From positions 1-46,423 of the forward strand of contig NZ_PPSL01000012.1 in NCBI RefSeq assembly GCF_002954265.1: DNA of 46,423 nucleotides, in the 5' to 3' direction. The notes beneath the pieces are model-generated. The model was not told the origin of the DNA. It made no database searches and saw only the letters and a program-made list of their open reading frames with translations. Each line of letters opens with the position of its first letter. Positions within the stretch are counted from its first letter, which is position 1. The DNA is from Flavipsychrobacter stenotrophus. Its GTDB lineage: Bacteria > Bacteroidota > Bacteroidia > Chitinophagales > Chitinophagaceae. The position numbers and the translations under genes were made by a program. Positions 14,360 through 32,175 of the stretch are shown piece by piece.

Positions 14360-16196
14360 AACGAATAGCTTTTACCAAATAATTTATCGAATCATCTTCA
14401 TTATTAGGATTAATGACAATCTCCTTATTCACTCTCTCGCCCTTATCTACTGATGTTAAATCTTCGTCTATAGAATTTGCTATTTGATAGGCAATTTCAG
14501 TTTTACTTAGTCCTTTGTTTATTAATTTTTCGGCAAGTGCTTTTTCAAAGTCGGTATTCCAATCAGTCCCTGTGTGAATTGACCTTGCCACCGCCTGAAA
14601 CGTAGCTGTCAAGCTGATGGACTTGAATAAGCTGTATTCCAATGTCCAATTAGGAGCAATAAAATACTGAACATTTTTTTCCGATTTTGCTTTTAAATCA
14701 GTTATTCTTTGCTGCGTCTCGGCAACAATGTCCGCCGCATCTCTTTTCAAATAAACTTTATTGCCGTCTTCGTTTTGCGTTAGCTGGTATTCTCTAATAT
14801 CTGAATCAGTTAGAACTGCTATTGGTACGGTCATATCCGGCAATTGTCTCCGAAGGAAAATATTTGCGTATTTATTGAATGCCAAATTCCCAACGTTTAC
14901 AATCGAAACACCCTTTTCAGTAAGATTTATACCGATATTTTTAGCGACACTTGAAATTAATATCTCCTCTGCCCACCCTTCAACTAACAATATACCCTTT
15001 GCGAAGAATAAATTTGCCTTTGTAACATCAAGGAATTTTTCTAAAAACTTATAATCATCTGCGACCAGTTTGGTATAATTAGCCCCCATAGGATATGCCT
15101 TGCCATTATTACAGATAATTAAATTTTCAAGGTTAAGTTTTGATGCTAAGTTCGGGCTATGCGTTGTTAGTATTAACTGAATAGTTTTCTGTTTTTGAAA
15201 GGATTCAATTACCTGCATTTGTGCTTGGGGATGAAGATGCGCTTCTATCTCCTCAATTAAACCTAATCTTATCCCGGTCCAATTGCTCTTGTTTAAATGC
15301 AAAAGTTCCGCAGCCATAAAAAGTCTATTTAGAGTTCCTAATCCTGGGTTTGGCTCGTTTTGTAATGAAAGGGTTAATTTTTCGAGAATACTTTTGATGT
15401 CATTTGATGCAACTTCAAATTCAGTTTCACAATCTTGGCCGTAAAAAATTTTGATGTAACCATCTATTTTATCCTTAATTATCTTGCCGCCTTGTGGTCG
15501 AGAAACCTGCGGTTCTCCTTCTTCAACCATTGTGGTAATCTCAAATTCTCCATTGAAGTATTTTTTTAAATTTCCACTTAATCCTTCAAATATTTTCACC
15601 AATTCATGATCCTTCTCTTTTCCTTTAAAAGCAGAATCGCCTAAGAGTATTTGGGACAGCCTTGAATTTCTTTTTGCTATTAACTCATTTTCGGCGTCAC
15701 GTAGTGGTTTTAAATAGGTGGCTTTTAAGTATTCCTTCGCTTCAGCCGTAAGCTGGTATCCATCGTTATCAATCCCAGCTTTGACATCGCTTGGTAAGAT
15801 TTTTTTTCCTTGTCGCCTGACATCATAAATAATTTTCAAGACTGGCTTTGCAGCTTCGCCCGTACCTTCCCAACCTAACCATTCGGTGAAATCCTTTGCT
15901 TCATCAGCTAATAGCCCCTTAAAAGTCAATTCAATTCTAAATCGAGAAGTATCATTGTGAAAATCCTTTTCCTCAACTTTTATGTAATCATAACTATGCG
16001 TCTTCAGTACAAGTTTAATAGCATCAATAATCGCAGTTTTGCCCGAATCATTTTCACCGATAATTACATTTAAACCCATATTCAGGTTTAAATCCAAGTT
16101 TGGTATGCTATCTGCCGTCATTTCAGCATCAGTTCCAAACTTTCTAAAGTTCCAAAGTTTTATATTTGATATATACATTCTCCATTTCTTTTTCAA
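14343..16196 (-). CDS. gajA: OLD-family ATPase / TOPRIM nuclease, Gabija GajA-like
   Basis: A 617-residue protein, close to the family length. The N-terminal ABC-type ATPase has ISNIKLWNFRKFG, Walker A GENDSGKTA (about residues 47-55), the signature/Walker B region LIEEIEAHLHPQAQ and an H-loop LTTHSPNLASKL. The C-terminal TOPRIM domain has the catalytic Glu in LLVEGWAEE (about 405), the DxD in LTDSDIREY (about 462-464) and a further acidic site in PNWTLEYSLF. All key residues are present, so it should be active. The start could be 16196 or the sixth-codon-downstream ATG at 16178 (MYISNIKLWNF), which fits the family start better. It lies 13 bp after kwaB and overlaps gajB. Confidence 0.8.
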   Translation of the reverse strand: MKKKWRMYISNIKLWNFRKFGTDAEMTADSIPNLDLNLNMGLNVIIGENDSGKTAIIDAIKLVLKTHSYDYIKVEEKDFHNDTSRFRIELTFKGLLADEAKDFTEWLGWEGTGEAAKPVLKIIYDVRRQGKKILPSDVKAGIDNDGYQLTAEAKEYLKATYLKPLRDAENELIAKRNSRLSQILLGDSAFKGKEKDHELVKIFEGLSGNLKKYFNGEFEITTMVEEGEPQVSRPQGGKIIKDKIDGYIKIFYGQDCETEFEVASNDIKSILEKLTLSLQNEPNPGLGTLNRLFMAAELLHLNKSNWTGIRLGLIEEIEAHLHPQAQMQVIESFQKQKTIQLILTTHSPNLASKLNLENLIICNNGKAYPMGANYTKLVADDYKFLEKFLDVTKANLFFAKGILLVEGWAEEILISSVAKNIGINLTEKGVSIVNVGNLAFNKYANIFLRRQLPDMTVPIAVLTDSDIREYQLTQNEDGNKVYLKRDAADIVAETQQRITDLKAKSEKNVQYFIAPNWTLEYSLFKSISLTATFQAVARSIHTGTDWNTDFEKALAEKLINKGLSKTEIAYQIANSIDEDLTSVDKGERVNKEIVINPNNEDDSINYLVKAIRYAAGN

Positions 16197-16209
16197 GATT
16201 AATCTGCAC

Positions 16210-17034
16210 TTATAGCTTTTTGATCGAGTTTGCCAGCCTTTTTTCGTTACCTAATTTTGTCGTATAGTAGCGTTCTCCAATTCCATAAAGTAATTGTTTC
16301 AAATCCTCTTCAGTACCTATTGAAAAATTCTTGGCTTTAGTATCAAAGGTTAAATTGGGGCAATAGTCTTTAATATAATTCAATATGCTCTTTTTACCTT
16401 TTGCATCGAAACTATTTAGAGCATCCATTGCCATTGCTATCCTTTTTCTATTGGCAGGTTTTACACTTGCCTCACTATACCCGTTTTCTAATTTAATAAA
16501 ACCAGCTTCTAAAAAATTTTGCGTTTCTTGTTGTGTTGCTGTTCGGTATAATGAATCAATTCCGATAAATATACTACTTATCGAAGTTAGCTTTTTGAAA
16601 TACATCGTGTCCGTATTCTTGATATATACAGCATCAGGAACGTCATTTATCACAATAATTGGTTCATTTTCAATCAAGGCTGGCGTTGTGGAAAAATAGA
16701 TCCAATTTTTTCTGAGTAATTGCCTTGCTGCCAATTTTTGGAAATAATATACCCCAGATTGGTAAGAACATAAATACTCAAGCTTGTTATAGTTATTGGC
16801 AGCGAGTTGTAGATACTCGGTAGGTACAAACTGTTTCGTTAATAAATCGATACAAAAAGACTGAGTTGCAAAATTTTCAATCGCAAACCATTCATCATCA
16901 TCAAGTTTGTAATCTGAATTGTACGCAGCCGGATTATCCAAATCATCCGGTAAAGTGAAGAAATCCTTATTAGCACTAATAACTTTAAAAATATCTCCAG
17001 TTCTACCTTTGACTTTTGCGATGAGATGGTTCAT
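16210..17034 (-). CDS. kwaB: Kiwa KwaB-like (DUF4868) protein
   Basis: A 274-residue soluble protein. The middle part has a pattern I associate with DUF4868: an IVINDVPDAVYIKNTDTMYF block, then KLTSISSIFIGIDSLYR, and a basic NRKRIAMAMDAL helix. A C-terminal SILNYIKDYCPNLTFDTKAKNFSI segment and a helical LKQLLYGIGERYY end follow. No nuclease or ATPase motif is visible. It starts 3 bp after a small four-helix membrane protein, which is the layout of Kiwa (KwaA membrane sensor, KwaB DNA-binding effector). The call rests on the gene pair, size and a by-eye family resemblance, so a profile search would decide it. Confidence 0.6.
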   Translation of the reverse strand: MNHLIAKVKGRTGDIFKVISANKDFFTLPDDLDNPAAYNSDYKLDDDEWFAIENFATQSFCIDLLTKQFVPTEYLQLAANNYNKLEYLCSYQSGVYYFQKLAARQLLRKNWIYFSTTPALIENEPIIVINDVPDAVYIKNTDTMYFKKLTSISSIFIGIDSLYRTATQQETQNFLEAGFIKLENGYSEASVKPANRKRIAMAMDALNSFDAKGKKSILNYIKDYCPNLTFDTKAKNFSIGTEEDLKQLLYGIGERYYTTKLGNEKRLANSIKKL

Positions 17035-17037
17035 GTT

Positions 17038-17577
17038 TTATGGTTCTTGGTCTATAAATGTAAAATCACTAATTCGTGTCAACGATGGAAAGCTAATGGT
17101 TTTGGGTTTATTAATTTTTTTCTTTGTTATCATAAATATCCTGACGTTGTTTACCGTTGTTAGATTATAAAAATGATAACCAAAAATAAGAAATAAAGGA
17201 TTGAAATATAAAGTCTGAGACAAAAAGGTAAATCCTAATATTATGGGATAGACATAACAAAGTGTTTCAGTATTCGGCACATCTAAGGCAACAAAAAAAT
17301 ATCCCAAATAACTCGGGAGAAACGCATCATTCGCATATTCAACACTTTCTATTGCTCCAATTTCCATATCCGTTTTATCAAGATGCACTGATAATACGAT
17401 GCTGATTGCAGTGGATATTATTGCAGCCAAAATGTAAACCGCATAAGAAAAGAAGTCAGGAACGTGCAAAATACAAGGAGGTACAATAGTTATTGTAACC
17501 CCGGCTTTTATCAAATATACCACAAGCAAGGGGGATGATGCGTTGAATGCCAAAAACCATCTAAACAGTAAGTTCAT
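17038..17577 (-). CDS. kwaA: Kiwa KwaA-like small membrane protein
   Basis: A 179-residue protein with about four membrane helices (near residues 12-34, 43-63, 104-122 and 124-140). A central soluble loop ends in NDAFLPSYLGYFFVAL, and a C-terminal cytoplasmic tail contains KKKINKPKTISFP. Size, topology and position directly before a DUF4868-like gene match KwaA of the Kiwa anti-phage system, where the membrane protein is proposed to sense infection. It starts 1 bp after the hsdR stop, so it is translated from the same transcript as the restriction subunit. Alternative: an unrelated membrane partner. Confidence 0.6.
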   Translation of the reverse strand: MNLLFRWFLAFNASSPLLVVYLIKAGVTITIVPPCILHVPDFFSYAVYILAAIISTAISIVLSVHLDKTDMEIGAIESVEYANDAFLPSYLGYFFVALDVPNTETLCYVYPIILGFTFLSQTLYFNPLFLIFGYHFYNLTTVNNVRIFMITKKKINKPKTISFPSLTRISDFTFIDQEP

Positions 17578-17578
17578 G

Positions 17579-20434
17579 CTATCGTCCCGTTATCCCGTTA
17601 ATAAATGTTTCAACAAATGTCATAATCCTATTCAATATCCGATCACCGACTTTTTTACGCTCAAGTACTGTTGGTTTGTCGCCTTCTATCAGCTCCAGCA
17701 CTTCGTCTCTTAGCGGCTCTCTTTCTGCGAATAAGTAATCTTCAATAATTTTCTCGGTTTTATCGGCTGCTAGGTTCTCGTCTTTTACTAACTGGTTAAA
17801 TGCCTTTTGCTGTTCAGCATTCCAGAATTTTTCAAACTCTTGCGGTATATTGTCTGTGTCTTCAATAACAGGTAGATTCTCTTGTATAAATTTCTCTATC
17901 AATTCCCGTTTGCTGCGCAGGTGGGCTTCGGTATTGAGTAAGTTGAAGATTTCCTTCTCTGTTTGAGAAACGTCTCCCTGCACTCTTGATTTGAGTTTGA
18001 TAAGTAACTGAATGATATAATTGACATTTATATCATCACGGTGGATCAGTTCCAGTTCAAAGTCCACATCTTCCAAAATGGATACTTTTTCTTTCTGGTT
18101 ATCGCTTTTTACTTTGTCGTACAGATCAAGGTATTTACTCTTATAATCCTCAAACAGTTGCTCGTTCATTGCCAGATCATCCCATTTGAAATCGGAAAAG
18201 GCAGCGAGTATGTTTTTAATTCGCATCAGATCCCTGAATGCTTTAATAAATTCTAATTCCTCATTTTCTGTCTGTAATTCGTTTACGCTGTTTACAGTGG
18301 GTGTTATCGTTAGTAATGCAATAAAAGCTTCATTAAATTTCTTTACATAGTCCTCATACGGCTTCATTATTATAACCTCAATGGCTTCTTTATTGCTAAA
18401 CAAAGTGATTGCTTCATCAGTAGCGTTTTTGAGGTTGCGAAAGACAACAATATTCCCCTGCGATTTCAGTTCATTTAAAATCCGGTTGGTTCTTGAATAG
18501 GCTTGTATAAGCCCATGATACCGGAGATTTTTGTCAACATACAAAGTATTCAAGGTTGGGCTGTCAAAACCCGTAAGGAACATATTTACCACCAATAAAA
18601 TATCAATTTTACGCTCCTTTACCTTCTTTGAAATGTCATTGTAGTAGTTGTAAAACGATTCACTGTCTCTGGTTAAAAATTTAGTGTCGAACATTTGGTT
18701 GTAATGCTCGATAAATTCGTCTAATTTTTCCCGGCTATGTGCCTGTAAGCCGTACAAAGCGGCAGGCTCTTCTACCACCGATAATTCCTCTGGCAGGAAG
18801 CCGTTTGCATCTGCATCATCCTCATTAGAAGCATAGCTAAAAATAGTAGCGATTCTCAAATTATGCAGCCCTGCTTCTTTTCTTGCTTGAAGAATGTCGT
18901 AATACTTAATCAGCGTAGCAACATTACTGATGCAAAACATTGCCGTAAATTCTCTGCTGTGGGTTTTGCGGTTGTGGTTGGCTACAATGTAATCGGCTAT
19001 TTTCTCTAGTCGTTTCGGTGATTCCATCAACTCTTTGGTATCAATGTCCTCTACCTCTATATCAATTTCTGTAGCGGTTTCTTTCTTTTTATACCGGCCT
19101 ACATATTCCACCGAGAATTTCAGTACGTTTTCGTCTTTAATGGCATCAGTAATGACGTACTTGTGCAAACATTCGCCAAACAGTTCTGTAGTAGTGCGTT
19201 TACCCAATTCATTTTTAACAGCATTATCGGCAAAAATGGGTGTGCCTGTAAACCCAAACAACTGAATGTTATTGAAGAATGCCTTAATCCGGTTGTGTGT
19301 TTCGCCGAACTGTGAACGGTGGCACTCGTCAAAAATAAAGACAATATGCTCATCTTTCAATTTCTCCATTTTCTCCAAATACTGCTTTTTGCTGATTGCA
19401 GTATTTAGCTTTTGAATGGTGGTAACGATCAGTTTGGTATCATTGAAAAATTGACGTACTAATTGATTTGTGTTATTTGTACCGTCAATACAGCCTTTGC
19501 TAAAGCTGTTAAATTCTTTGTTGGTTTGGTAATCCAAATCTTTTCTGTCCACCACGAACACTACTTTTTTTACTTGTGGCAGGTTCATTAATATCTGGCT
19601 GGCCTTAAATGAAGTTAAGGTCTTGCCAGAACCTGTGGTATGCCAGATGTACCCATTTTTATTACTGTTTATTACCCGGTCAATGAGCGCTTCTACCGCA
19701 AAGAATTGATATGGCCGAAGCACCATCAATATCTTATTGGTCTCGTTCAGAACAATGTATTTGCATATCATTTTTGATATGTGGCAAGGCTCTAAAAACT
19801 CGGCTGTAAAGCCGTTTAATATGTTGGTTAGCCGTTTGTTTTCTTTATCTGTCCAGTAAAACGTTTGTTTGAATGATTGAAGGCGGTTGTTGGCGTAATA
19901 CTTTGTATTTACCCCGTTACTGATTACGAAAATTTGTAAGTATTGAAATAAAGCAGAGTTTGCACCGAATGAATGACGTTGGTAGCGGTTGATCTGGTTA
20001 AATGCTTCTTTCAGCTCAAGCCCTCTGCGCTTGAGTTCTACTTGCACTAATGGCAAACCGTTTATCAGTAGCGTAATATCATACCGGTTTTTATATTTGC
20101 CTTCTATTGTTACCTGGTGTGTTACTTGAAACTGGTTTTGACACCAATGCTCGGAATTGATAAACTCAAAATAGAGGTTATCTCCATTGTCGCGTACTAT
20201 ATGCTGTTTTTCTCTGAGGGTTTTCGCCTTTTCAAATACAGATCCTTTGCTGAGTATGTTCAATACCTTTTCAAATTCCTTCTTGCTAAACTGAATATTA
20301 TTATGCTTCTCTAATTGGTGTTTCAGGTTGGCAACCAACTCTTTTTCATCTTTGATAAGTACCAAACCATAACCCAACTTTGTCAGTTGAGTTACCAATT
20401 GTTCTTCTAATATTTGTTCGGGTTGTTTAGCCAT
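17579..20434 (-). CDS. hsdR: Type I restriction enzyme R subunit (HsdR)
   Basis: A 951-residue protein, of normal HsdR length. The N-terminal nuclease domain has NRYDITLLINGLPLVQVELKR (D-x(n)-ExK, near residues 118-135) and the QINRY motif. The SF2 translocase has Walker A TTGSGKT (about 263-269), DECHRS (about 368), GFTGTPIF and a late motif LLVVNMFLTGFDSPTLNTLYVDK with AYSRTNR. A C-terminal helical part contacts the methylase core. All catalytic residues are present. It cuts DNA that HsdM/HsdS has not methylated. It is separated from hsdM/hsdS by the recombinase gene and leads the Kiwa/Gabija gene string. Confidence 0.92.
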   Translation of the reverse strand: MAKQPEQILEEQLVTQLTKLGYGLVLIKDEKELVANLKHQLEKHNNIQFSKKEFEKVLNILSKGSVFEKAKTLREKQHIVRDNGDNLYFEFINSEHWCQNQFQVTHQVTIEGKYKNRYDITLLINGLPLVQVELKRRGLELKEAFNQINRYQRHSFGANSALFQYLQIFVISNGVNTKYYANNRLQSFKQTFYWTDKENKRLTNILNGFTAEFLEPCHISKMICKYIVLNETNKILMVLRPYQFFAVEALIDRVINSNKNGYIWHTTGSGKTLTSFKASQILMNLPQVKKVVFVVDRKDLDYQTNKEFNSFSKGCIDGTNNTNQLVRQFFNDTKLIVTTIQKLNTAISKKQYLEKMEKLKDEHIVFIFDECHRSQFGETHNRIKAFFNNIQLFGFTGTPIFADNAVKNELGKRTTTELFGECLHKYVITDAIKDENVLKFSVEYVGRYKKKETATEIDIEVEDIDTKELMESPKRLEKIADYIVANHNRKTHSREFTAMFCISNVATLIKYYDILQARKEAGLHNLRIATIFSYASNEDDADANGFLPEELSVVEEPAALYGLQAHSREKLDEFIEHYNQMFDTKFLTRDSESFYNYYNDISKKVKERKIDILLVVNMFLTGFDSPTLNTLYVDKNLRYHGLIQAYSRTNRILNELKSQGNIVVFRNLKNATDEAITLFSNKEAIEVIIMKPYEDYVKKFNEAFIALLTITPTVNSVNELQTENEELEFIKAFRDLMRIKNILAAFSDFKWDDLAMNEQLFEDYKSKYLDLYDKVKSDNQKEKVSILEDVDFELELIHRDDINVNYIIQLLIKLKSRVQGDVSQTEKEIFNLLNTEAHLRSKRELIEKFIQENLPVIEDTDNIPQEFEKFWNAEQQKAFNQLVKDENLAADKTEKIIEDYLFAEREPLRDEVLELIEGDKPTVLERKKVGDRILNRIMTFVETFINGITGR

Positions 20435-20800
20435 TGTCTATTAAATTACAAATCAGCGATGTCACTATTTCCTTATCCGCAAGCTTCTATTCACTTCCAC
20501 TTCTTATCGAACTATTTCAATTTTGGAAATAGTTGGTTAGGCAGTCAACTGCATTGATTTAATTATATTATTTATGTGTCTGTTTACACCGGGCACTTGA
20601 GCCCGCAATATAGTTGCTATCTGTTTTTTGAGTAACCGAACCAGTACCTATATATCAGTATTTCATTCATGACCCTTCTGGTTTACCCCTGTGATTGGCA
20701 ACCTGTTCCAAGAAGGAACAGGTTGTACCACTGCAAATAGTAAACTCTAAAATTATAATTATAAACTTGAAATGCTTACGGTAAACAAGAAAATAACCAA
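20435..20800. other. 366-bp intergenic region with hairpins
   Basis: No gene seen. A perfect hairpin AACCTGTTCC/GGAACAGGTT with a 5-nt loop spans 20700-20724, and a smaller CGGGC/GCCCG hairpin lies near 20599-20615. Neither has a T-run on the minus strand, where recombinase transcription arrives. They may be weak terminators, or the hsdR transcript may partly read through from upstream. No clear TAnnTTTG box was found ahead of hsdR. Confidence 0.4.
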
Positions 20801-21727
20801 TTATTTTAACCCTTTAAACATCTGGTCAATAGCCTTCTTCTTTTGTTCCAAATTAGGATGCACATAAAGGTTTAATGTCGTGCTTATATTTGAATGGCCT
20901 AATAAAACACTTACCGTTTTATAGTCGCACTTACTTTCTATGCACCTGGTAGCAAAGCTATGCCTAAGTCCGTGGAATTTGAGTTCTGGCATATCCAATT
21001 CTTTCATTAAGTTTTTGTAATATGTTCTGTATGTTCTCGGCTCAGTTGGTTTGGCATCATTTGTCAGGACATAAAAAGATGGATTGACAATCTTTTTGAT
21101 GGGTTTTAGCATTTTTAGCAGGTCTTTATTCATTGGCACTTCACGAATGGAATTTTTGGTTTTAGGGGTGTCGAGGATCACTTCTGTTTTGCGAATATCA
21201 CCTTCAATGATGTAAATACGCTGTATGGTTCGGCGAATATTAATAATACCGTTGTCAGTGTCAATGTCTTCCCAGCTAAGAGCGCAGACCTCGCCAATAC
21301 GCATACCTGTACATAGGCAGATATACACTCCTAAATTCCGAAAGGTAAAATGTTCCTGTATGTATTGCATCATCTTTTTCTGATGGGTACGGCTCAATAC
21401 TTCAATATTCTGTCTGGTTCTTTCCGTAGGAAACTGAATGTCGAATGGCTGGTAATTCAGCCATTTGTTTTTAGCTCCGAATTTGATAACCATTTTCAGC
21501 ACGATGAGAATGTCCTTGACGGTTTTCTGGCTCAACCCGTGCTCTATTTTCTGCAAGACAAAGGCTTGCACTTCGATTTCATCAACCTCGTATTTGCTGC
21601 CAAATGCCGGTATTAAATGATTTTCGAGCAGGAGCATATAGGCTGAAAAACTTGATTTTTTTACATATTGCTTCTTGTCTGTTTTCCAAAGAGATATGAT
21701 CTCTGAGATTGTTTTTTGCTGATTCAT
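20801..21727 (-). CDS. Tyrosine recombinase, probable hsdS inversion enzyme
   Basis: A 308-residue phage-integrase-type recombinase. It has an N-terminal SAM-like arm (ISEIISLWKTDKKQYVKKSSF) and a catalytic domain with the complete R-K-H-R-H-Y set: Arg in CTGMRIGEV, Lys in TPKTKNS, HGLRHSFATR, LLGHS and the nucleophile Tyr in LNLYVHP. It lies inside the type I R-M locus, directly beside a start-less hsdS cassette and next to 20-bp inverted repeats. No phage or transposon gene is near. This is the layout of invertible hsdS loci, so I infer it catalyses their inversion. Confidence 0.85.
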   Translation of the reverse strand: MNQQKTISEIISLWKTDKKQYVKKSSFSAYMLLLENHLIPAFGSKYEVDEIEVQAFVLQKIEHGLSQKTVKDILIVLKMVIKFGAKNKWLNYQPFDIQFPTERTRQNIEVLSRTHQKKMMQYIQEHFTFRNLGVYICLCTGMRIGEVCALSWEDIDTDNGIINIRRTIQRIYIIEGDIRKTEVILDTPKTKNSIREVPMNKDLLKMLKPIKKIVNPSFYVLTNDAKPTEPRTYRTYYKNLMKELDMPELKFHGLRHSFATRCIESKCDYKTVSVLLGHSNISTTLNLYVHPNLEQKKKAIDQMFKGLK

Positions 21728-21802
21728 ATAGTGTTTTTTTGATTCAATGCCAAAGGAAAATAATTAGCAAGAGCTTTTAAACCCAGATGGTAAATCATTA
21801 AG

Positions 21803-21822
21803 GTTCCTAATTTGAGATTCCC
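21803..21822 (+). repeat. Inverted repeat IR1, silent-cassette copy
   Basis: gttcctaatttgagattccc, 20 bp, is identical to the reverse complement at 24838-24857. It codes for VPNLRFP in the same frame in both hsdS genes, and identity ends sharply on both sides. Confidence 0.8.
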
Positions 21823-22987
21823 GAGGTTTGAGGGTGAGTGGGAAGAGAAGAAGTTGGGCGATGTGGCTAAATTCTCAAAAGGTAAAGGAATTTCAAAAAG
21901 TGACATTGAAGAAGGTGGAACTATTGAATGTATAAGATATGGAGAATTATATACACACTATAAAGAGGTGATTATTGAAGTAAAGTCAAGAACAAATGTT
22001 GATAAGAGCAACTTGGTATTTAGCGAGGCAAACGATGTAATAATACCATCTTCTGGAGAAACTCAAATTGACATAGCAACAGCGTCTTGCGTATTAAATT
22101 CAGGAGTGGCTTTAGGAGGGGATTTGAATATTATTAAAACGGATAATAATGGTGTTTTTCTTTCTTACTATTTGAACAGCAAAAAGAAAATGGAAATAGC
22201 CAATTTAGCGCAGGGTATTTCCGTTGTGCATTTATACTCCAGCCAGTTGGCATCTTTGAAAATGAATTTTCCTTGTTTGGCCGAACAAGACAAAATTGCT
22301 TCATTTTTATCATTGCTCAATGAAAGAATTCAAACCCAAAACAAAATAATTGATAGTCTGGAAACCTTAATTAAAGGGCTTAGTGAGAAATTGTTTGCAC
22401 CGAAAATTAGGTTCAAAGACGAACAAGAAAACGATTTTGCTGATTGGCTGGAGAATTTCGGAGACAGTCTTTTTGAAAGCATTTCAAATAAAAATCACAA
22501 TTCAGATCTTCCAATTTTAGCAATAACTCAAGAACATGGGGCAATACCTAGAGATATGATTGACTATAATGTTTCTGTAAGTGACAAAAGCATTGAAAGC
22601 TATAAAGTGGTGCAAAAGGGAGATTTCATTATTAGTTTGAGGTCGTTTCAGGGAGGCATTGAATTTTCAAATTATGAAGGAATTTGCAGTCCGGCTTATA
22701 TAGTATTGCGCCCGATAAAAGAGGTTAACCGTAATTTCTTCAGATTGTATTTTAAAACGACGGGGTATATAAAACGACTGATAAAAAATCTTGAAGGCAT
22801 CAGGGATGGTAAAATGATAAGCTTTAAATATTTTTCAGAAGTAACTATACCAACACCTTCGATTGAAGAACAAAAAAAAATCACAAATTTCCTACTCTCT
22901 ATTGAAAGAAAAATTGAAACAGAAAGGAAAGTTTTAGCACAGTATGAAAACCAGAAAAGCTACTTGTTACAACACATGTTTATATAA
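21812..22987 (+). CDS. hsdS: Silent full-length HsdS cassette (no proper start codon)
   Basis: Encodes a complete two-domain type I specificity subunit of about 391 residues. TRD1 begins LRFPRFEGEWEEKKLGDV, a central coiled coil is IASFLSLLNERIQTQNKIIDSLETLIKGL, TRD2 begins IRFKDEQENDFADWLENFGD, and the second helical repeat is IEEQKKITNFLLSIERKIETE. An in-frame TAA (21791-21793) lies four codons before IR1 and there is no ATG in between; only ATT or the TTG at 21812 could start. It lies opposite to hsdM. After inversion at IR1 the frame would read MATKKQKISN-VPNLRFP and give an intact 404-residue HsdS. Confidence 0.8.
   Translation: MRFPRFEGEWEEKKLGDVAKFSKGKGISKSDIEEGGTIECIRYGELYTHYKEVIIEVKSRTNVDKSNLVFSEANDVIIPSSGETQIDIATASCVLNSGVALGGDLNIIKTDNNGVFLSYYLNSKKKMEIANLAQGISVVHLYSSQLASLKMNFPCLAEQDKIASFLSLLNERIQTQNKIIDSLETLIKGLSEKLFAPKIRFKDEQENDFADWLENFGDSLFESISNKNHNSDLPILAITQEHGAIPRDMIDYNVSVSDKSIESYKVVQKGDFIISLRSFQGGIEFSNYEGICSPAYIVLRPIKEVNRNFFRLYFKTTGYIKRLIKNLEGIRDGKMISFKYFSEVTIPTPSIEEQKKITNFLLSIERKIETERKVLAQYENQKSYLLQHMFI
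22369..22388 (+). repeat. Inverted repeat IR2, in the central conserved region of the silent hsdS
   Basis: aattaaagggcttagtgaga, 20 bp, is identical to the reverse complement at 23648-23667. It codes for IKGLSE at the junction between the central coiled coil and the second target-recognition domain. Confidence 0.75.
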
Positions 22988-23684
22988 ATAACTTTTTTAA
23001 AAGATAAACTCTTTGCCGTTTATATTTTTTTAATATATTCTTTTCTGTATCAATTTTGTCAGATAAAACTGAAAGGGAAAGAGCGATTTTGGTTTGTTCT
23101 TCCAAAGCTGGAATCTCCAATAGCACATTTGACAATCGAGTGGTTGAAATACTTAACACTTTGGAGCCTTGTGCCTCTTTTTGGATTTGTTGTCTTATTT
23201 TTTCTGACTTGAATAAATACCCGCAAAAGCCAATCGAAAAAATATTATGTAAAGGACGGGCAAGTATTGTATGCAATCCAGCCAGTACTTTCTGACCATT
23301 CAAATTTACTACTTCAATACTTTTTCCTACATCTTTTAAGTCTTCAGAGGCATCGGCTACTATCAGATCGCCTATTTTGCAATAGTTTTCTTCCTCAATT
23401 TTACTAATATTTACGTCCGAATTTATATATGGAGTACTTTCATTCTGCAGGTTTAAAAGTGTACCGTACTTCGTATGAATATCTCCGTAGTGAATATTTT
23501 TTACATACCCTTCATGATAATTCAACTTATCCCGTGAATATGAATTGGTTACTTTAAACGTAAATACCTGACCTAATTTTCCAAGTCTCCAATCAGGAAA
23601 ATACTCTCCATTCTCATTTTTAAACCGTAATTTCTGATTGAATAAACTCTCACTAAGCCCTTTAATTGAGGATTCATTGGAGCT
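22980..23684 (-). pseudogene. Partial HsdS cassette: conserved linker plus second target-recognition domain
   Basis: An open frame from the TAG at 23685-23687 down to 22980. It starts SSNESSIKGLSESLFNQ-KLRF with ENGEYFPDWRLGKLGQ (the linker into TRD2), then a TRD2 with YVKNIHYGDIHTKYG and the final helix EEQTKIALSLSVLSDKIDTE. It has no TRD1 and no good start codon (a TTG at 23525 is internal). It begins almost exactly at IR2, so it is a donor of an alternative TRD2 rather than a decayed gene. Its 3' end overlaps the 3' end of the silent hsdS on the other strand by 8 bp. Confidence 0.75.
23648..23667 (-). repeat. Inverted repeat IR2, TRD2-fragment copy
   Basis: The partner of 22369-22388. Inversion here would swap the second recognition domain of the silent hsdS with that of the partial cassette on the opposite strand. 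Confidence 0.75.
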
Positions 23685-23690
23685 CTACAT

Positions 23691-23966
23691 CTATTTTGGA
23701 AACAAATTTTGCAGCAAATAGTTCTTCTGCGCTTCAAACTGATTTAATAAACGTTTTTCGGTTTTTATCTTTTGATCAAGTCTGGATAATAACATTGCGA
23801 TTTTATCTTGCTCTTTTCGCGTGCAAATCGAAATTGGAATTTTGGACAGTTCATTGCCGGAAATAGCAGGGTAACTTGTCCCAGTACATCTCATCATTAC
23901 ATGATTATTAAAATCAGGCTGATTTATCAAAAAGTAAATGAAACTCGGATTATTGTTCGTTTTTAT
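23691..23966 (-). pseudogene. C-terminal remainder of the hsdM-linked HsdS, after the premature stop
   Basis: Continues in the same frame as the HsdS at 23967-24887, right after its TAA. It reads IKTNNNPSFIYFLINQPDFN, then GTSYPAISGNELSKIPI and the closing helix KEQDKIAMLLSRLDQKIKTE, ending at a TAG (23691). One codon change (for example CAA for TAA) would give a normal 398-residue HsdS. There is no own start that would make sense. Confidence 0.8.
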
Positions 23967-24887
23967 TTATGCATAACCAGTAGATGCGACCCATTGTCTA
24001 TCATCCTTTCTCCTGTATATGTAGTTGTTTAGCTGGTATGGTCGAACGCATTGAAATAATACATCCCCATCTTCTAATACCCGTGTAGCACGGCTCGGTG
24101 CATCTGCCTTTTGTACTATAACCTCCCTTATAAGTTCTCCTTTTACTACCGATTCAAGATCTATGTACACAAACTCACTTATGACTGGTTCTGTTTTAGG
24201 ATTAATCTGACACTGCTCGTTAACAGTAGTTTTACTCCACCTATCTTGAAACCCTGGAAATCGTAACTTTTGGCTAAATATTTCTTCGCCCAACTTCTTG
24301 ATTAAGGATTTCAGTTGCTCAATTATTTTGTTTTGAGTCGCTATGCGTTCGTCAAGTATAGAAAGAAATGACGCAATTTTCTTTTGTTCGGTGTCTGAGG
24401 GAAAAGGAACTTTAAAACGTTTCAAATCACTCCCATTAATGGAGTTGATTGTTGCGCCTAAGTTTTTGTATACCTCGGATTTATACTCTTCAGTATCAAA
24501 CCAATGAAATAGAAAATGGTTGTAGCTACTTCTATAAATAGTCATAAATGCACCGAAGGCAAGGCCTTCGTGCTCCTTTTTTATTAGCGCATTTTTTCCA
24601 ATTAAGTTTTGACTACCATTTCTTACGCATATCAAAATATCGTCTTCTAAAGCCGGATTGAAATTTCCAGTTTTTACGAAAACATTGTCTACAAAGGCTA
24701 GTCTTCTTCTCTGAACGTTTGAAGATCGCAGCACTAAAACCCCATCATCAGCGATATCATTTGGGCTATATGTTAATCCGCTAATAATCTCCCCGACTTC
24801 TCCTAGCCTCTTTCTGCGCCATTCCCCCTCAAAGCCAGGGAATCTCAAATTAGGAACGTTACTTATTTTTTGTTTTTTGGTTGCCAT
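23967..24887 (-). CDS. hsdS: HsdS specificity subunit in the expressed position, truncated by an in-frame TAA
   Basis: 306 residues: TRD1 beginning LRFPGFEGEWRRKRLGEV, the central coiled coil IASFLSILDERIATQNKIIEQLKSLIKKLG, and TRD2 beginning LRFPGFQDRWSKTTV that stops inside VASTGYA. TAA lies at 23967-23969, and the frame is open for another 91 codons. It starts 48 bp after the hsdM stop and is therefore the expressed S gene. The truncated form lacks part of TRD2 and the last conserved helix, so normal bipartite recognition is doubtful. Half-size S subunits can sometimes dimerise, so residual activity is possible. The first ten codons plus start are not present in the silent copy. Confidence 0.85.
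   Translation of the reverse strand: MATKKQKISNVPNLRFPGFEGEWRRKRLGEVGEIISGLTYSPNDIADDGVLVLRSSNVQRRRLAFVDNVFVKTGNFNPALEDDILICVRNGSQNLIGKNALIKKEHEGLAFGAFMTIYRSSYNHFLFHWFDTEEYKSEVYKNLGATINSINGSDLKRFKVPFPSDTEQKKIASFLSILDERIATQNKIIEQLKSLIKKLGEEIFSQKLRFPGFQDRWSKTTVNEQCQINPKTEPVISEFVYIDLESVVKGELIREVIVQKADAPSRATRVLEDGDVLFQCVRPYQLNNYIYRRKDDRQWVASTGYA
24838..24857 (-). repeat. Inverted repeat IR1, expressed-hsdS copy
   Basis: The partner of 21803-21822, lying at codons 11-17 of the hsdS behind hsdM. Recombination between the copies inverts about 3.05 kb and joins the expressed start codon to the silent hsdS in frame. Confidence 0.8.
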
Positions 24888-24935
24888 CTCAATTATTTTT
24901 TTTCTCAGCCGTGAACATTAAGGATTGTATAGAAA

Positions 24936-26504
24936 TCAAAAAACTAACCCTAGTTCCTTAAAATATACATCGATCTCTTTATCGAGTTCGGCACGCTTGG
25001 CTTCCAGTTGCTTTATTTCACCCATCACTGAAGCTATATCAATCTCATCCTCTTCTTCAAAAGTATCAACGTACCGAGGAATATTGAGATTATAATCGTT
25101 ATCAGCAATTTCCTTTAGTGGCGCAAGGTGACTGTATTTTTCAATTTCGATTCTTTTCCTGTAGGTTTCAATGATTTTATCGATGTGCTGTTCACGTAGC
25201 ACATTTTGTGTTTTTACTTTTTCAAAATCATTGCTCGCATCAATAAACAAAATGTTATCAGGGTTTTCACGACATTTTTTAAATACTAGGATACAAGTCG
25301 GAATACCCGTTCCATAGAAGATATTTGCTGGTAGGCCAATCACAGCATCCAGAAAATTCTTGTTCTCAATTAGGTACTTGCGGATGTGAAGCTCTGCTGC
25401 CCCTCTGAATAAAACCCCATGCGGTAGCACTACTGCCATACTGCCATTTTCGGCTAAATGGTGTACCATATGCTGCACGAATGCAAAATCCGCTTTGCTC
25501 GAAGGAGCAAGTCTGCCGTATTGGCTAAAACGGTCATCACTTGTAAATAGAGGATTTGCACTCCATTCAGCGGAAAAAGGTGGATTTGCTACAATGGCTT
25601 CAAACTGTTTATCAATATGCTGCGGGTGTTCCAGCGTGTCTTCCTGCTTAATATCAAACTTGCGGTAATGTACACCATGCAATATCATGTTCATCCGGGC
25701 AAGGTTGTATGTTGTTCGGTTCATTTCCTGCCCATAAAAGTTGCTTACCTCTTTTACTTCCTTAGCCACACGCAATAACAAAGAACCCGAACCGCATGTA
25801 GGATCATATACCGATTTCAACTTACTCTTCCCTGTAGTAACGATTTTGGCAAGCACCTTACTAACCTCCTGCGGGGTATAAAATTCGCCTGCCTTTTTAC
25901 CTGCACCGCTGGCAAATTGCCCAATAAGATATTCATAAGCATCGCCTAAAACGTCTAACTCGGTCATTTCGAGTTTGAAATCAATATTGTCTAAATGAGA
26001 AAGCACTTTGGCAATGATTTCATTTCTTGCATCCGGTGATTTGCCCAGCTTAGTACTGTTCAAATCCATATCTTCAAAAAGGTTGTCAAAATCCTCTTCA
26101 CTTTCCGTTCCCATTGTACTGAGTTGGATATTCGTGAGAATCTTCTGAAGGTCTTCCAATATGAAATTGCTTTCTGCCTCCTCCTTGTCTTTGTTTCCAC
26201 GTTTAGCTACTTCGCTGAACAGTTCGGACGGTTTTAAGAAGTACCCCAATTTTTCCAGGGCTTCCTCCCTGATGGCTTCTATATATTCTTTGCCTTGTTT
26301 GGTGTTTTCTTTAATGGTTTTGTACTTAATACCATCTGCTTTTAAAATGGAATTGGCATAAATCTCCATTTTCTCAGCAAGATATTTATAGAATATAAAG
26401 CCCAAAATATAGTCACGGAATTCGTCAGCATTCATTTTTCCCCTGAGAGTATTGGCTATATTCCAAAGCTGCTGTTCAAGATTGCGTTTTTGATCTTCAC
26501 TCAT
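24936..26504 (-). CDS. hsdM: Type I DNA adenine-N6 methyltransferase M subunit (HsdM)
   Basis: 522 residues. It has an N-terminal HsdM helical domain (LEQQLWNIANTLRGKMNADEFRDYILGFIFYKYL), the AdoMet motif DPTCGSGSLLLRVA near residues 237-250, catalytic motif IV NPPF near 306-309, and a C-terminal helix (IKQLEAKRAELDKEIDVYFKELG). Length and motifs are complete, so it should be active given a working S subunit. It is first in the hsdM-hsdS order on the minus strand. The start at 26504 matches the usual MSEDQKRNLEQQLWN family start. Confidence 0.93.
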   Translation of the reverse strand: MSEDQKRNLEQQLWNIANTLRGKMNADEFRDYILGFIFYKYLAEKMEIYANSILKADGIKYKTIKENTKQGKEYIEAIREEALEKLGYFLKPSELFSEVAKRGNKDKEEAESNFILEDLQKILTNIQLSTMGTESEEDFDNLFEDMDLNSTKLGKSPDARNEIIAKVLSHLDNIDFKLEMTELDVLGDAYEYLIGQFASGAGKKAGEFYTPQEVSKVLAKIVTTGKSKLKSVYDPTCGSGSLLLRVAKEVKEVSNFYGQEMNRTTYNLARMNMILHGVHYRKFDIKQEDTLEHPQHIDKQFEAIVANPPFSAEWSANPLFTSDDRFSQYGRLAPSSKADFAFVQHMVHHLAENGSMAVVLPHGVLFRGAAELHIRKYLIENKNFLDAVIGLPANIFYGTGIPTCILVFKKCRENPDNILFIDASNDFEKVKTQNVLREQHIDKIIETYRKRIEIEKYSHLAPLKEIADNDYNLNIPRYVDTFEEEDEIDIASVMGEIKQLEAKRAELDKEIDVYFKELGLVF

Positions 26505-26890
26505 TTGTGATCTTTAATTTTGGTAATCCTCAAATTTACATTTTAATGTCTGATAAGGCTATTAATTAGGGCAAGACAATATAATGCCGTCAATAAAAGC
26601 TGAATTTAGCAATGCGGGCCTGTTTTTTCGCTATAAACATGTATTTAGGTATTATGTCACAACCTTATCTTTAATATCTTCCACTGTAGTTAATTTGTAC
26701 AATCAAAACTACATTGATGGAAGGCTAATTTTGATATTTTCGCTCAAGCATATGCCCTATAATTATATTTATAAATTTTTCCTGGTTAAACCCTTTTCAG
26801 CCTTCAATGTCACATTATTCTAAGCTTTGATTGCAGTTAAGTGTGCATAAAACGGAAAATAAAATTGCTATGTTATAAGGGCTGCTTTGT
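26505..26890. other. 386-bp intergenic region upstream of hsdM
   Basis: No credible gene (a 79-codon + frame has no family features). On the minus strand TAAATTTG (26538-26531) matches the Bacteroidota -7 box TAnnTTTG, 27 bp upstream of the hsdM ATG, and is a plausible hsdM promoter although no -33 element stands out. The rest is AT-rich and holds the 3' end of the RND-pump transcript. No strong terminator hairpin was seen. Confidence 0.4.
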
Positions 26891-29800
26891 CTAAGATAAT
26901 ATATCGGCCAATGACACCTGTTCATTTTTATGGATGATCCTTAAAAAACTTGGCAATACAATAAGTAGCAAAACTAATGCTACTAGGAAGCCGCCAATAA
27001 CGGCTATAGCTAACGGCTGGTGCAACTGTGCCCCTGTGCCAATCCCTAAAGCCAAGGGGGCAAGTGCGATAATTGCGCCAAGGGCAGTCATCAGCTTTGG
27101 CCGTAGCCTGGTAGAAATAGAATAAATAATGGCATCGTCTACACTGCTGGTAAGTAAAGACTCCCGGAACTGGAGATAGGTAAATATGGCATTCTCCCCA
27201 ATTATCCCTACTATCATGATCAGTCCGGTATAGCTGCCTACATTAAGGGGCGTATGCGTGATAAATAATGCGAGGTAGCTTCCTGAAATACCTAGTAGTG
27301 CTACTATGACAATAACGAGTGCCACTTTTATCTTCCTGAACAGGAATAGGATAACAGCAAAAACCAATAGGGTCGATGTAAGCAGGATAACAAGCAGCTC
27401 CTTGAATGACTGTTGCTGGTCTGAGTACGAACCACCATATTCTATGTGGTAGCCTCGGGGCAGAACAACGTTTGATGTTATCTGTGTCTGAATATCCTTC
27501 ATCACGCCGCCAAGGTCACGATTATCAAGACGGGAGGTAACCACTCCTATCGATTGGAGATTTTCTCTTTGTATCTCTGCATCTCCGGTATTAATAGTAA
27601 TACTAGCCAATTCGGTTATCGGTTTCATCCTGCCGTCAGGGAGAAAAATAAGCATCTTATTGATGTCCGCTGCGGAAAGTTTTCGGTTGCATGGATGAAC
27701 CAACCGAATATTGGATACTTGCTCCTTCTCGAGAATGTTACCTGCTATATTTCCTTCCAGTGCCGTTTGCATCTGGTATTGGAACGATACGGGCGTGATA
27801 CCGAATTGCGCCAGCTTTGAATAGTCAGGAACCACACTTAGCGACGGCCCGGCTATCACTATTCCGTTGAACACATCAGCAGTGCCTTTTACATTTGAAA
27901 TGACTTCAGCAACATTATTGGACAGCTTCCTTAGTATTTGCTGGTCATCGCCATATATCTTTATCTCTACCGGTTGCACCGACGTCATCAGGTCTCCCAG
28001 CATATCTCCGATAACCTGTCCGAAATCGACACGCAATGCGGGTTGTGTAGATTCTATTTTCTGCCTTATCGAAGCTATCACATCGTCTGTGGTTGCCGAC
28101 CTGTCTTTTTTAAGTTGTATCAGGTAATCCCCCCTGTTAGGCTCGGTGATGAAGAAGCCCATTTGTGTGCCGGTCCTCCTGGAGTATGCCTGCACGTCTT
28201 TCTCTTTCGTTATTATCTTCTCTACTTCTCTAAGCATCCGGTCTGTTTCTTCAAGTGATGTGCCGGGCGGGGAAGAGTAATCGAGTACAACGCTACCTTC
28301 ATCCATTTCCGGAAGGAAGCCGGTTTGCAGCTTCGGAAGTATCAGGACAATGCATAGGATGAGCACGGCGGAAACAATGATACTGATATACGGCCTGTGG
28401 ATAAAGAACGAGATCCAACGCTGTGTCTTCACCGGATGTTCCTTCTTTTTCGTAGCAGCAGGTATCTTTCTGGTAAAAAGGAGGTAGATAACCGGCAGGC
28501 CTATCCAAGTAACAAAAAAGGAACATAGCAGGGTGACGATCATAGTATTTGTAAGCACCTTGAAATAGGCCCCTGCAACACCCGTCATCAAAGTAAAGGG
28601 AATAAAAATTACTATCGTGCTTATGGATGACCCCACCATGGCCGGGAACAGGTACCTGACTGCCTTTTGCACCAACTTTTCTGTAGGCTCGCCTGGGTGT
28701 TCCTCGTGGGTCCGGTGTATCTGCTCCACTACTACTATCGCGTCATCAATGATCAGTCCTATGGCTGCGGCTATAGCGCCAAGGGTCATAATGTTAAGCG
28801 AATACCCCATGAAGTAGATCACAACAAGAGTAAGACACAAGGTGACCGGTATCGTAACCAGAATGGTGGCACTAGCCTTGAATGAACGGAGAAAGATCAC
28901 GGCGACGATGATTGCAAGAGCAAGACCTATCCACAAACTGTCCGTTACACTTTTTACTGAGTCCTTGACAAAGTCAGCCTGCACATAATAGGGACTTATA
29001 TCCACTCCTTTGGGGAGTATCTTTTTAAGGTCCTTTATGCGCTTCTCTATGTCAGCCGATACAGTCAGCAAATTGGCATTGGGCTGTTTGATCACTGCGA
29101 CCAGAAGGGCGTCTTTTCCGTTAGCATTGATCCTCGTGTACTCTGTTGCTTCGCTTATGCTGACTTCGGCAATATCCTTGAGCAATATAATCCTCTTGCC
29201 GTCATTGCGGATTACCAGGGCATTAAGTTCATCTACGTTATGTACTGTAGCGTCTGTTACAGCAAGGTAAAGATACCTGTAGTCAGCAAGATAACCATTC
29301 GATTTTATGAAGTTGGTTTGTGACAAGGATGTATTTACCGCATCTGGATTTATCCCTAATGCTGTCATTTTTTCTTTATCGAGCGAGACCCGGTATTCTT
29401 TTTGCTTGCCTCCTATAACCCTTATTTCAGATACTCCGTCGGCCTGCGAAAGAAATGGTTTTATAGTAAATGTTGCAAGTTGCTTTAACTCGATTGGAGA
29501 TAGGTCATGGCTCTCCAATGTGTAACCCATCACAGGTAATATAGATGGATTCATTTTCTCCACTACTATCTGGGTTTCTGGAGGCAGGGTGCTTCTTATT
29601 TCGTTGATCTTTGACTCGATTCGCTGCTGGCTCAGGTCTATATTGGCATTCCAGTCCATAAAGGCAGATATCTCACAACTCCCCCTGCTGGTAGTGCTTC
29701 TTACTGTATGGAGGTCAGGTACCTGCTTGATGGCATTTTCCAATGGTTTCGTAACGGTAACCATCATTTTATTTACTGGCATCAGGCCCGCATCCGCTAT

Positions 29801-29935
29801 GATCTTGATCTTTGGGAATGTTATTTCAGGAAATAGACCCGTCTGTAGCTTGCTGTAAGCAAACAATCCACCCATGACAATGATGGCCAGTAATACAGCA
29901 AGAGGATTTTTATAGGAGACAAAGAAATTTTTCAT
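26891..29935 (-). CDS. RND efflux pump inner-membrane permease
   Basis: 1014 residues, with two halves each made of a membrane helix, a large periplasmic loop and a helix bundle. TM1 is NPLAVLLAIIVMGGLFAY with GLFPEITFP; TM4 is GLIIDDAIVVVEQIHRTHEE with the double Asp used in proton relay; a second PEMDEG loop start is seen, and TM10 is MIVGIIGENAIF. TM4 resembles multidrug (HAE-type) pumps, whereas the Glu in TM10 sits where AcrB has Lys and CusA-type pumps have Glu. The substrate cannot be read from sequence. It follows the adaptor gene by 6 bp and ends the operon. Confidence 0.92.
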   Translation of the reverse strand: MKNFFVSYKNPLAVLLAIIVMGGLFAYSKLQTGLFPEITFPKIKIIADAGLMPVNKMMVTVTKPLENAIKQVPDLHTVRSTTSRGSCEISAFMDWNANIDLSQQRIESKINEIRSTLPPETQIVVEKMNPSILPVMGYTLESHDLSPIELKQLATFTIKPFLSQADGVSEIRVIGGKQKEYRVSLDKEKMTALGINPDAVNTSLSQTNFIKSNGYLADYRYLYLAVTDATVHNVDELNALVIRNDGKRIILLKDIAEVSISEATEYTRINANGKDALLVAVIKQPNANLLTVSADIEKRIKDLKKILPKGVDISPYYVQADFVKDSVKSVTDSLWIGLALAIIVAVIFLRSFKASATILVTIPVTLCLTLVVIYFMGYSLNIMTLGAIAAAIGLIIDDAIVVVEQIHRTHEEHPGEPTEKLVQKAVRYLFPAMVGSSISTIVIFIPFTLMTGVAGAYFKVLTNTMIVTLLCSFFVTWIGLPVIYLLFTRKIPAATKKKEHPVKTQRWISFFIHRPYISIIVSAVLILCIVLILPKLQTGFLPEMDEGSVVLDYSSPPGTSLEETDRMLREVEKIITKEKDVQAYSRRTGTQMGFFITEPNRGDYLIQLKKDRSATTDDVIASIRQKIESTQPALRVDFGQVIGDMLGDLMTSVQPVEIKIYGDDQQILRKLSNNVAEVISNVKGTADVFNGIVIAGPSLSVVPDYSKLAQFGITPVSFQYQMQTALEGNIAGNILEKEQVSNIRLVHPCNRKLSAADINKMLIFLPDGRMKPITELASITINTGDAEIQRENLQSIGVVTSRLDNRDLGGVMKDIQTQITSNVVLPRGYHIEYGGSYSDQQQSFKELLVILLTSTLLVFAVILFLFRKIKVALVIVIVALLGISGSYLALFITHTPLNVGSYTGLIMIVGIIGENAIFTYLQFRESLLTSSVDDAIIYSISTRLRPKLMTALGAIIALAPLALGIGTGAQLHQPLAIAVIGGFLVALVLLLIVLPSFLRIIHKNEQVSLADILS

Positions 29936-29941
29936 GCAGAT

Positions 29942-30871
29942 CTATTGAACAATTTTTACTTTGGCGGTATCACTCAACCCATAATTGCCTGTAACCAATA
30001 TTTTATCTTCCTGACTGAAGGAAGGTGCTAGAATTTCTACCCAGTCTTTTGTCTCAATGCCTTTTGTAATTTCCACTTTTACCGCGGTAGTGCTATCTGA
30101 AATCTTCATTACCCAATAAGTAGTTTGTATGTCATTGCTGAGTATAGCGCTTTTGGGCAGCGATTGTGTTTTTCCCTTTTGTGTCTTCACTATTTTTGCC
30201 CTGGCTATCAGGTTTTCAGGTAGTGGGATATTGCTGCTTGTCCTTATAATATAGCTTTCCGTCTGTGATGCGGAGTCCATAACAGGTAGTGATGACTCAA
30301 CGACACCTTGAAGCACTGTGGCATCTGGTAAAACCAAGGCGACATTTTTTCCTACAGCTATATAACGGCGTAATTCATATGGTAAGTTCAGGATAAACGC
30401 AAAACTGGTCCTATCACTGATTACAGCCAACTGCTCCCCATCCTGCACATAATCGCCCGACTGGTGGCTAAGTTGCGTAATATAACCACTTGAGGTAGCA
30501 ACAATCTTATTTTCGCCTGAAAATTTGAATGAAGGGTCAAGCTTGCTGATCGTGTTGCCTATACTTTGTGATTCCTTGGTCTTGACGGTAAAGAGCACCT
30601 CTCCCTTGCTTACAAACTTGCCTATCCTGATATTTACGGTTTGTATATAGCCGCCTGCATTGGCCTTGACATAACTTTTACGCAAGAAAGACGAAGTAGC
30701 ATTCAGCTCAATATACTCGCTGATCGGGCCGGAAACAACATTAGTAACCGTGACAGGCGTAGTGACTTCTTTTGTGGTTTCTGCCGTAGTCTCTCCGGCT
30801 TTACCTTTACATCCCCACAGGTATAGACAAAGCGAAAGCAGGGGTATGAACCGTTTACATATTGACAGCAT
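29942..30871 (-). CDS. RND efflux periplasmic adaptor lipoprotein (MFP)
   Basis: 309 residues. A lipoprotein signal with lipobox LWGC (Cys near residue 21) anchors it in the inner membrane. The rest has the adaptor order: a lipoyl half-motif (ASSFLRKSYVKANAGGYIQTVNIRIGKFVSKGEVLFTVKT), a short hairpin, the second half (IVATSSGYITQLSHQSGDYVQDGEQLAVI), then beta-barrel and membrane-proximal strands (LPYELRRYIAVGKNVALVLP; VLVTGNYGLSDTAKVKIVQ). It bridges pump and TolC channel. The spacing of 6 bp on both sides shows one operon. Confidence 0.9.
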   Translation of the reverse strand: MLSICKRFIPLLSLCLYLWGCKGKAGETTAETTKEVTTPVTVTNVVSGPISEYIELNATSSFLRKSYVKANAGGYIQTVNIRIGKFVSKGEVLFTVKTKESQSIGNTISKLDPSFKFSGENKIVATSSGYITQLSHQSGDYVQDGEQLAVISDRTSFAFILNLPYELRRYIAVGKNVALVLPDATVLQGVVESSLPVMDSASQTESYIIRTSSNIPLPENLIARAKIVKTQKGKTQSLPKSAILSNDIQTTYWVMKISDSTTAVKVEITKGIETKDWVEILAPSFSQEDKILVTGNYGLSDTAKVKIVQ

Positions 30872-30877
30872 AAGGTT

Positions 30878-32113: not shown

Positions 32114-32138
32114 TAGTAAAACGGATTATTTCCTGTGT

Positions 32139-32172
32139 CAAAGGAACATACTAAAACTGAAGAAAAAAGGAA
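32139..32172 (-). promoter_or_regulatory. Regulatory box and -7 element before tolC
   Basis: Minus strand: TTCCT at 32172, TTCAG at 32161 (11 bp apart), then TTTG at 32142-32139, 30 bp from the first half-site. This spacing is the same as in the other boxes of this region. The first half-site is degenerate. Inferred target of the OmpR-type regulator encoded just upstream. Confidence 0.5.
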
Positions 32173-32175
32173 GAT

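Follow-up and report, generated by a model that had tools for sequence, protein, structure and literature searches.

The DNA analyzed here is a 46,423-nt stretch of Flavipsychrobacter stenotrophus, contig C19 of a 5.43-Mb genome assembled into 21 contigs, which is termed the window and whose coordinates are used throughout. It contains a type I restriction-modification operon whose specificity gene, hsdS, very probably belongs to a shufflon of the kind described for Bacteroides fragilis, with a neighboring tyrosine recombinase most likely inverting the DNA. This kind of system is already known, and the locus is a further example of it. The operon is on the minus strand and comprises hsdM, hsdS, silent hsdS pieces, the recombinase gene and hsdR. 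As the HsdR, HsdM and HsdS subunits are encoded together, the locus is a type I restriction-modification system. The anatomy of the locus, its reading frames, the pairing of repeat arms across relatives and two arrangements in the assembly of one related strain were all observed directly.

An earlier note on this DNA had claimed a 20-bp inverted repeat lying in the same codon frame on both strands, with one copy cut off from any start codon. Each part of this description was borne out. The repeat, GTTCCTAATTTGAGATTCCC, was present as an exact match of all 20 bases at 21803-21822 on the plus strand and at 24838-24857 on the minus strand, the arms being 3,055 bp apart. One further match was detected in the window when up to five mismatches were allowed, and it had five. 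A 17-base core with up to two mismatches occurred in just these two places in the 5.43-Mb genome, and the backwards control gave no matches. The minus-strand arm starts at codon 11 of the hsdS gene beginning at 24887. The plus-strand arm is in the same HsdS frame and lies 76 bp from the start of the recombinase gene; a TAA codon (21791-21793) precedes it by four codons, and the interval contains no ATG. This arm opens a silent hsdS body (21803-22987, plus strand; Methylase_S) that encodes two target recognition domains (TRDs), T1a and T2a. T2c, a headless second-TRD cassette with stop codons ahead of it, is located on the minus strand at about 22980-23675, with a Methylase_S match on 22980-23525. 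Both of these elements sit between the expressed hsdS and the recombinase gene.

The hsdS gene in the expressed place (23967-24887, minus strand; Methylase_S) encodes TRDs T1b and T2b. The earlier note had called this copy expressed, and it does have its own ATG, but an in-frame stop that had been overlooked truncates it. A TAA codon at 23967-23969 (minus strand) forms codon 307, inside T2b, leaving 306 of 398 codons open; without it, the frame would close at codon 399 (23691-23693). This stop was absent from all five relatives in which both pieces of the T2b domain were matched, and may conceivably be an assembly error.

The list of repeats given earlier was also incomplete, in that two inner repeats and the headless T2c cassette had been missed. 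The longest exact inverted repeats in 20700-27000 were two of 20 bp (the outer repeat and I20), one of 17 bp (I17) and one of 14 bp. The arms of I20 lie in the silent hsdS (22369-22388, plus strand) and at the start of the headless cassette (23648-23667, minus strand), while those of I17 lie in the silent hsdS (22337-22353, plus strand) and the expressed hsdS (24319-24335, minus strand). Both inner repeats are positioned between first and second TRDs and would turn the single flip into a shuffle of several states. The outer repeat, I20 and I17 all preserve the HsdS frame, and comparison of the three sites by eye revealed no common sequence beyond short A-rich stretches. Inversions were simulated at the exact repeats, the outcome being independent of the cut point inside a repeat. 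The outer repeat alone gave two expressed forms, the outer repeat with I20 gave three and the outer repeat with I17 gave four. Using all three repeats, eight arrangements and six expressed HsdS forms were obtained. Four of these were full length (T1a-T2a, 404 aa; T1b-T2a, 400 aa; T1a-T2c, 427 aa; and T1b-T2c, 423 aa) and two were truncated (T1b-T2b, 306 aa, the archived state, and T1a-T2b, 310 aa). The archived orientation is one of these two truncated states; hence, an outer flip would come closer to switching the system from off to on than to exchanging one working specificity for another. Off/on switching through a truncated HsdS is a prediction from these reading frames, and the truncated protein might keep some activity.

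The recombinase (20801-21727, minus strand; 308 aa; Phage_integrase) has all of its catalytic residues, as the earlier note stated; they were read here as R143, K189, H252, R255, H278 and Y288. Among proteins of solved structure, its best relatives were an Int protein (6emy), a second integrase and Xer recombinases. A scan of contigs with this protein yielded 67 loci (68 counting the window; individual loci are given L numbers), including examples from Chryseobacterium, Epilithonimonas, Pedobacter, Sphingobacterium, Flavobacterium, Emticicia and Sediminibacterium. The recombinase is sparse, being found in 4 of 394 genomes of the family (E value of 1e-40) and 11 of 395 genomes in a sample of the phylum (1e-60), its own genome being counted in both, and in none of 10 other genomes of the genus at 1e-20. 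HsdM was encoded upstream in 32 of the 39 loci with at least 5 kb of sequence there, and HsdR downstream in 53 of the 60 with at least 5 kb on that side. The six catalytic positions could be read in 67 of the 68 recombinases, that of L074 being left out as too short and broken by a frameshift or error. The lysine, both histidines, the second arginine and the tyrosine were present in all 67 and the first arginine in 66. Two recombinase loci with 80 to 86% identity to that of the window, L016 and L057, came from metagenome bins titled Azovibrio and Ignatzschineria; the title of the L016 bin is probably wrong, since this locus was placed in the window's own family. TRDs resembling those of the window occur on both strands among the relatives. 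Domains with at least 75% identity to T1a occupied the expressed place in L015 (Sediminibacterium ginsengisoli), L050, L054 and L076 and the silent one in L027, L037, L053 and L074, and T2c-like domains were also found as first-position domains in L025 and L027.

Of the 57 loci having at least 150 bp upstream of the recombinase, 50 had the outer motif (up to two mismatches) within 300 bp on that side; none of 56 had it in the 300 bp downstream. Arms were sought with up to four mismatches to a degenerate pattern; among the 68 loci, a near arm was found in 57, a far arm in 37 and both in 33. The two 19-base arms of a locus were identical in 21 of these 33 loci, compared with 21 of 1,056 pairs (2%) drawn from different loci; an in-register run of at least 20 bases was seen in 25 of the 1,056 between-locus pairs (2.4%). 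In a permutation test on the 33 loci, the observed mean arm identity was reached in 0 of 10,000 permutations. The identity of own arms relative to arms of other loci is therefore more than protein homology gives.

A position-by-position profile was drawn from 26 of the 33 loci, the window included; left out were six loci whose far matches had four mismatches and L056, whose far match had three and was judged a non-partner. Positions -2, -1 and 4 were free in the search pattern. At -1 and 4, own arms agreed in all 26 loci, while agreement between loci was 68% and 26%, respectively. Own-arm agreement was 96 to 100% at each position from -1 to +17 and only 27% at -2. To the right of +17 it fell slowly, with several positions still above the between-locus level. 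As L035 and L074 are from one strain and loci are related, the 26 rows are not independent. A similar profile for the inner site, from 33 loci with the first match taken as the far arm, was less clear because most of this site is conserved between loci, the own-arm excess being plain mainly at positions 7 and 8 (0.82, against 0.48 between loci). Inverted repeats of 503 and 513 bp, far longer than elsewhere, run from the outer site through the first TRD in L034 and L075 and are perhaps due to a recent duplication of this TRD.

Contigs of the relatives frequently ended near the repeats. Upstream of the recombinase, a contig end was observed at 80 to 399 bp in 19 of 67 loci, at 600 to 699 bp in four and at 918 bp in one, whereas an end within 1 kb downstream was observed in 2 of 67. 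The 80- to 399-bp and 600- to 699-bp ranges, which account for 23 of the 67 loci, are the distances of the outer and inner repeats. Some ends were off the repeat, that of L047 falling short of it and that of L066 lying 298 bp past the motif start. Pairs of contig ends were sought in 15 genomes, drawn from the 24 loci with such ends, and 12 of the 15 had a motif match. In five genomes, the contig with hsdM and the contig with the recombinase gene ended in identical sequence, of 22, 123, 127, 43 and 95 nt, respectively; 127 is a usual k-mer length. The shared ends held the repeat in all five and also TRD-side DNA in four. An assembly graph produces such ends when one TRD end joins two flanks. 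A longer shared repeat, like those of 503 and 513 bp in L034 and L075, would give identical contig ends too.

Rearrangement was seen within Sphingobacterium multivorum NCTC11343, whose assembly contains two contigs with the locus (L035 and L074); one flank is 99.8% identical over 2.8 kb and the other 99.7% over 5.3 kb. Comparison of the two contigs showed a 2,254-bp block that is inverted (99.5% identity) and a 1,173-bp block that has moved in the same sense (99.9% identity); two inversions are therefore needed. The junctions placed one exchange in CAAAATAATT, a 10-bp identity, on the right-hand side of a base not shared by the two arms, and the other in TAAAGGGCT, a 9-bp identity. The counterparts of these sites in the window are I17 and I20. 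HsdM from this S. multivorum locus is a distant one (36 to 50% identity, in pieces), and one of the two contigs may be a wrongly joined minor contig. The rearranged segment also carries a 300-codon open reading frame (ORF) that is not hsdS-like by eye and has opposite orientations in the two contigs (2746-1846 in L035 and 1881-2781 in L074, in bases upstream of the recombinase start). In L073, whose recombinase is 95% identical to that of the window, a 745-bp block containing T2a (91% identity) is oriented the other way and has its end at window position 22362, adjacent to I20. The ORF that includes T2a in L073 lacks a first TRD and faces a 380-aa silent hsdS ORF.

According to the mechanism proposed from these comparisons, the neighboring tyrosine recombinase would invert the DNA between short inverted repeats. 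Inversion at the outer pair would swap the hsdS body behind the fixed ATG, and the inner repeats, if they are also substrates of this enzyme, would swap second TRDs among the expressed gene, the silent gene and the headless cassette. Up to six HsdS proteins might be produced, four being full length with different TRD pairs and two truncated and carrying the interrupted T2b. Such switching, if it occurs in this organism, would be expected to alter the methylome together with the restriction target and also, in part, to act as an off/on switch for the system. The claim of an invertible hsdS with its own recombinase thus stands as the best reading, with support from the relatives, but the single 3.05-kb flip originally envisaged would be only part of the process.

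The same structures might arise if hsdS pieces were exchanged by general homologous recombination, gene conversion or another recombinase, the neighboring enzyme being incidental or acting at one site only. The long repeats of L034 and L075 and the inner-site repeats of 90 and 67 bp in L044 and L033 are consistent with such a process. However, the outer core is matched over 18 to 19 bp and sharply bounded on one side, and the exchanges in S. multivorum fell within 9 to 10 bp of identity; the sharp one-sided edge and the short exchange tracts argue for site-specific rather than general homologous recombination. The position of the outer site beside the recombinase in 50 of 57 loci speaks against an incidental enzyme, and exchange by these other routes is considered quite improbable. 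Far less credible still is the proposal that the repeats are conserved hsdS coding sequence (the VPNLRFP stretch) and that the opposite orientation is a frozen duplication. The outer motif does encode a protein stretch common to these HsdS proteins, but the arms of a locus match each other at bases that vary freely between loci, and this comparison makes mere coding conservation unlikely; contigs ending at the repeats and two arrangements in one strain argue against a frozen duplication.

A shufflon that formerly inverted but is decaying or locked in this strain, with the T2b stop as a mark of lost function, is unlikely, though less so than either of these proposals. In favor of decay, the in-frame stop in the expressed second TRD is absent from five of five relatives with a similar domain, the near relative L073 showed no match to hsdM in 10 kb upstream, and a 48-aa recombinase remnant is present elsewhere in the genome. 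Against decay, the recombinase, hsdM and hsdR genes have uninterrupted frames, as do the silent gene and the headless cassette, which are also in frame at the repeats, and full-length proteins make up four of the six simulated products. Several observations nevertheless weigh against an active shufflon driven by the neighboring recombinase. The archived genome assembly shows one orientation only, and an interrupted T2b in the expressed place is as compatible with decay as with switching. No HsdM was detected upstream in 7 of 39 loci, and no HsdR downstream in 7 of 60. The position profile left out 7 of the 33 two-arm loci, a choice that favors identity, and the I17 pair is in a stretch that is mostly conserved between loci anyway. 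A contig-end pair was detected in just 5 of 15 genomes; in G403 and G395 the second match lay inside a contig, and the remaining eight genomes had no usable contig pair. Finally, in pneumococci, spnIII rearrangements have been described that proceed without any known site-specific recombinase (PMC6620402).

If the locus does invert, a single clone would contain cells that differ in type I methylation pattern and restriction target, including some in which the system is off. This analysis adds to the known kind of system an interrupted TRD in the expressed place, an outer core defined across relatives and exchange points located to single bases in one relative. Two elements can be reused, namely, the ~18-bp outer core derived from paired identity in 26 loci and contig ends at repeats as an indication that an assembly mixes orientations, and together they open the site preference of this recombinase group to direct testing. 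A more tentative suggestion, which we regard as doubtful, is that the recombinase group, present in several Bacteroidota classes, is a dedicated TRD shuffler acting at three unlike short sites (outer, ~18 bp; inner, 10 and 9 bp) for which identity between the two partner sites counts rather than a fixed sequence, and that the interrupted TRD is kept as an "off" cassette joining specificity change with on/off control.

The remaining genes around the shufflon were also examined. The operon is completed by hsdM (24936-26504, minus strand), which encodes a methyltransferase subunit of 522 aa matching TIGR00497 above the cut-off as well as N6_Mtase and HsdM_N, and by hsdR (17579-20434, minus strand), which encodes a restriction subunit of 951 aa matching TIGR00348 above the cut-off. 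Adjoining hsdR, on the minus strand at 12311-17577, are Kiwa-like genes (KwaA-like, 17038-17577; KwaB-like, 16210-17034) and, on the same side and strand, Gabija-like genes (GajA-like, 14343-16196; GajB-like, 12311-14359); the shufflon is therefore in a defense island. Beyond hsdM (26891-33426, minus strand) are genes for an RND efflux permease and adaptor and a gene of 411 aa without an NCBIfam match, followed past the efflux genes by a PorY-like sensor kinase gene (32176-33426, minus strand). The recombinase was also considered as the integrase of a prophage or mobile element; its family-matched neighbors are hsdS, hsdR, hsdM, the Kiwa- and Gabija-like genes and efflux genes. The absence of phage genes beside it, as asserted earlier, agreed with the scan: no phage or transfer genes were detected among the scanned neighbors, some ORFs of the window being outside the scan and attachment (att) sites not having been sought. 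A second shufflon in this genome was likewise rejected, as the match on contig C14 (G000:C14:175819-175962; L010 8820-8963) is a remnant of 48 aa from the recombinase C terminus (92% identity). A 546-aa ORF near it is hsdR-like by eye, and the two may be what is left of another locus of this kind; inspection by eye of the 12 ORFs listed there, where no family search was made, revealed no hsdS.

Related systems have been described in other bacteria. A survey of REBASE identified 875 of 22,107 hsdS genes (3.9%) as sharing a repeat with a second hsdS in their locus (PMC7394358). The rule applied in that survey calls for an exact inverted repeat of 20 bp or more, no farther than 30 kb away and in a second hsdS belonging to the same locus, and the window conforms to it. 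Neither Flavobacter nor Chryseobacterium appears as a word in the main text of the survey, and a literature search joining hsdS, type I restriction, Flavobacterium and inverted repeat found no paper. Read-based work detected type I inversions in 13 species and no inversion of any kind in the two Chitinophagia examined. The SpnD39III/Spn556II (cod) locus of Streptococcus pneumoniae, with its recombinase PsrA, resembles the window in carrying several copies of hsdS with inverted repeats at more than one position in the gene, in encoding its own tyrosine recombinase and in having six forms (PMC4948785, PMC7096588 and PMC7394358). It belongs to another phylum, however, and its repeats are of 15, 85 and 298 bp (PMC4948785), compared with 17 to 20 bp in the window.

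The closer parallel is with the hsdS shufflon of B. fragilis (BF1839-1842 in NCTC 9343 and 1146-1149 in 638R), a member of the same phylum as the host of the window (PMC3090145). Both are type I loci in which several inverted repeats rearrange TRDs, and in both a tyrosine integrase gene is immediately beside the last hsdS (PMC3090145). In the window, as in that kind of system, hsdS and TRD cassettes lie in opposite orientation and in frame at shared inverted repeats, and the tyrosine recombinase gene directly adjoins the last hsdS. The published inner repeat of B. fragilis ends in ACCCAAAACAAAATCAT (PMC3090145), and the window has the close sequence ACCCAAAACAAAATAATTGA; compared by eye only, the inner repeats are of one type, CCCAAAACAAAATAATT in the window and CCCAAAACAAAATCAT in B. 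fragilis. Eight polypeptide combinations from four repeat sets are described for B. fragilis (PMC3090145), compared with six simulated forms for the window. Unlike the B. fragilis shufflon, the window has an interrupted second TRD in the expressed place; the likeness between the two systems is one of locus plan and inner repeat.

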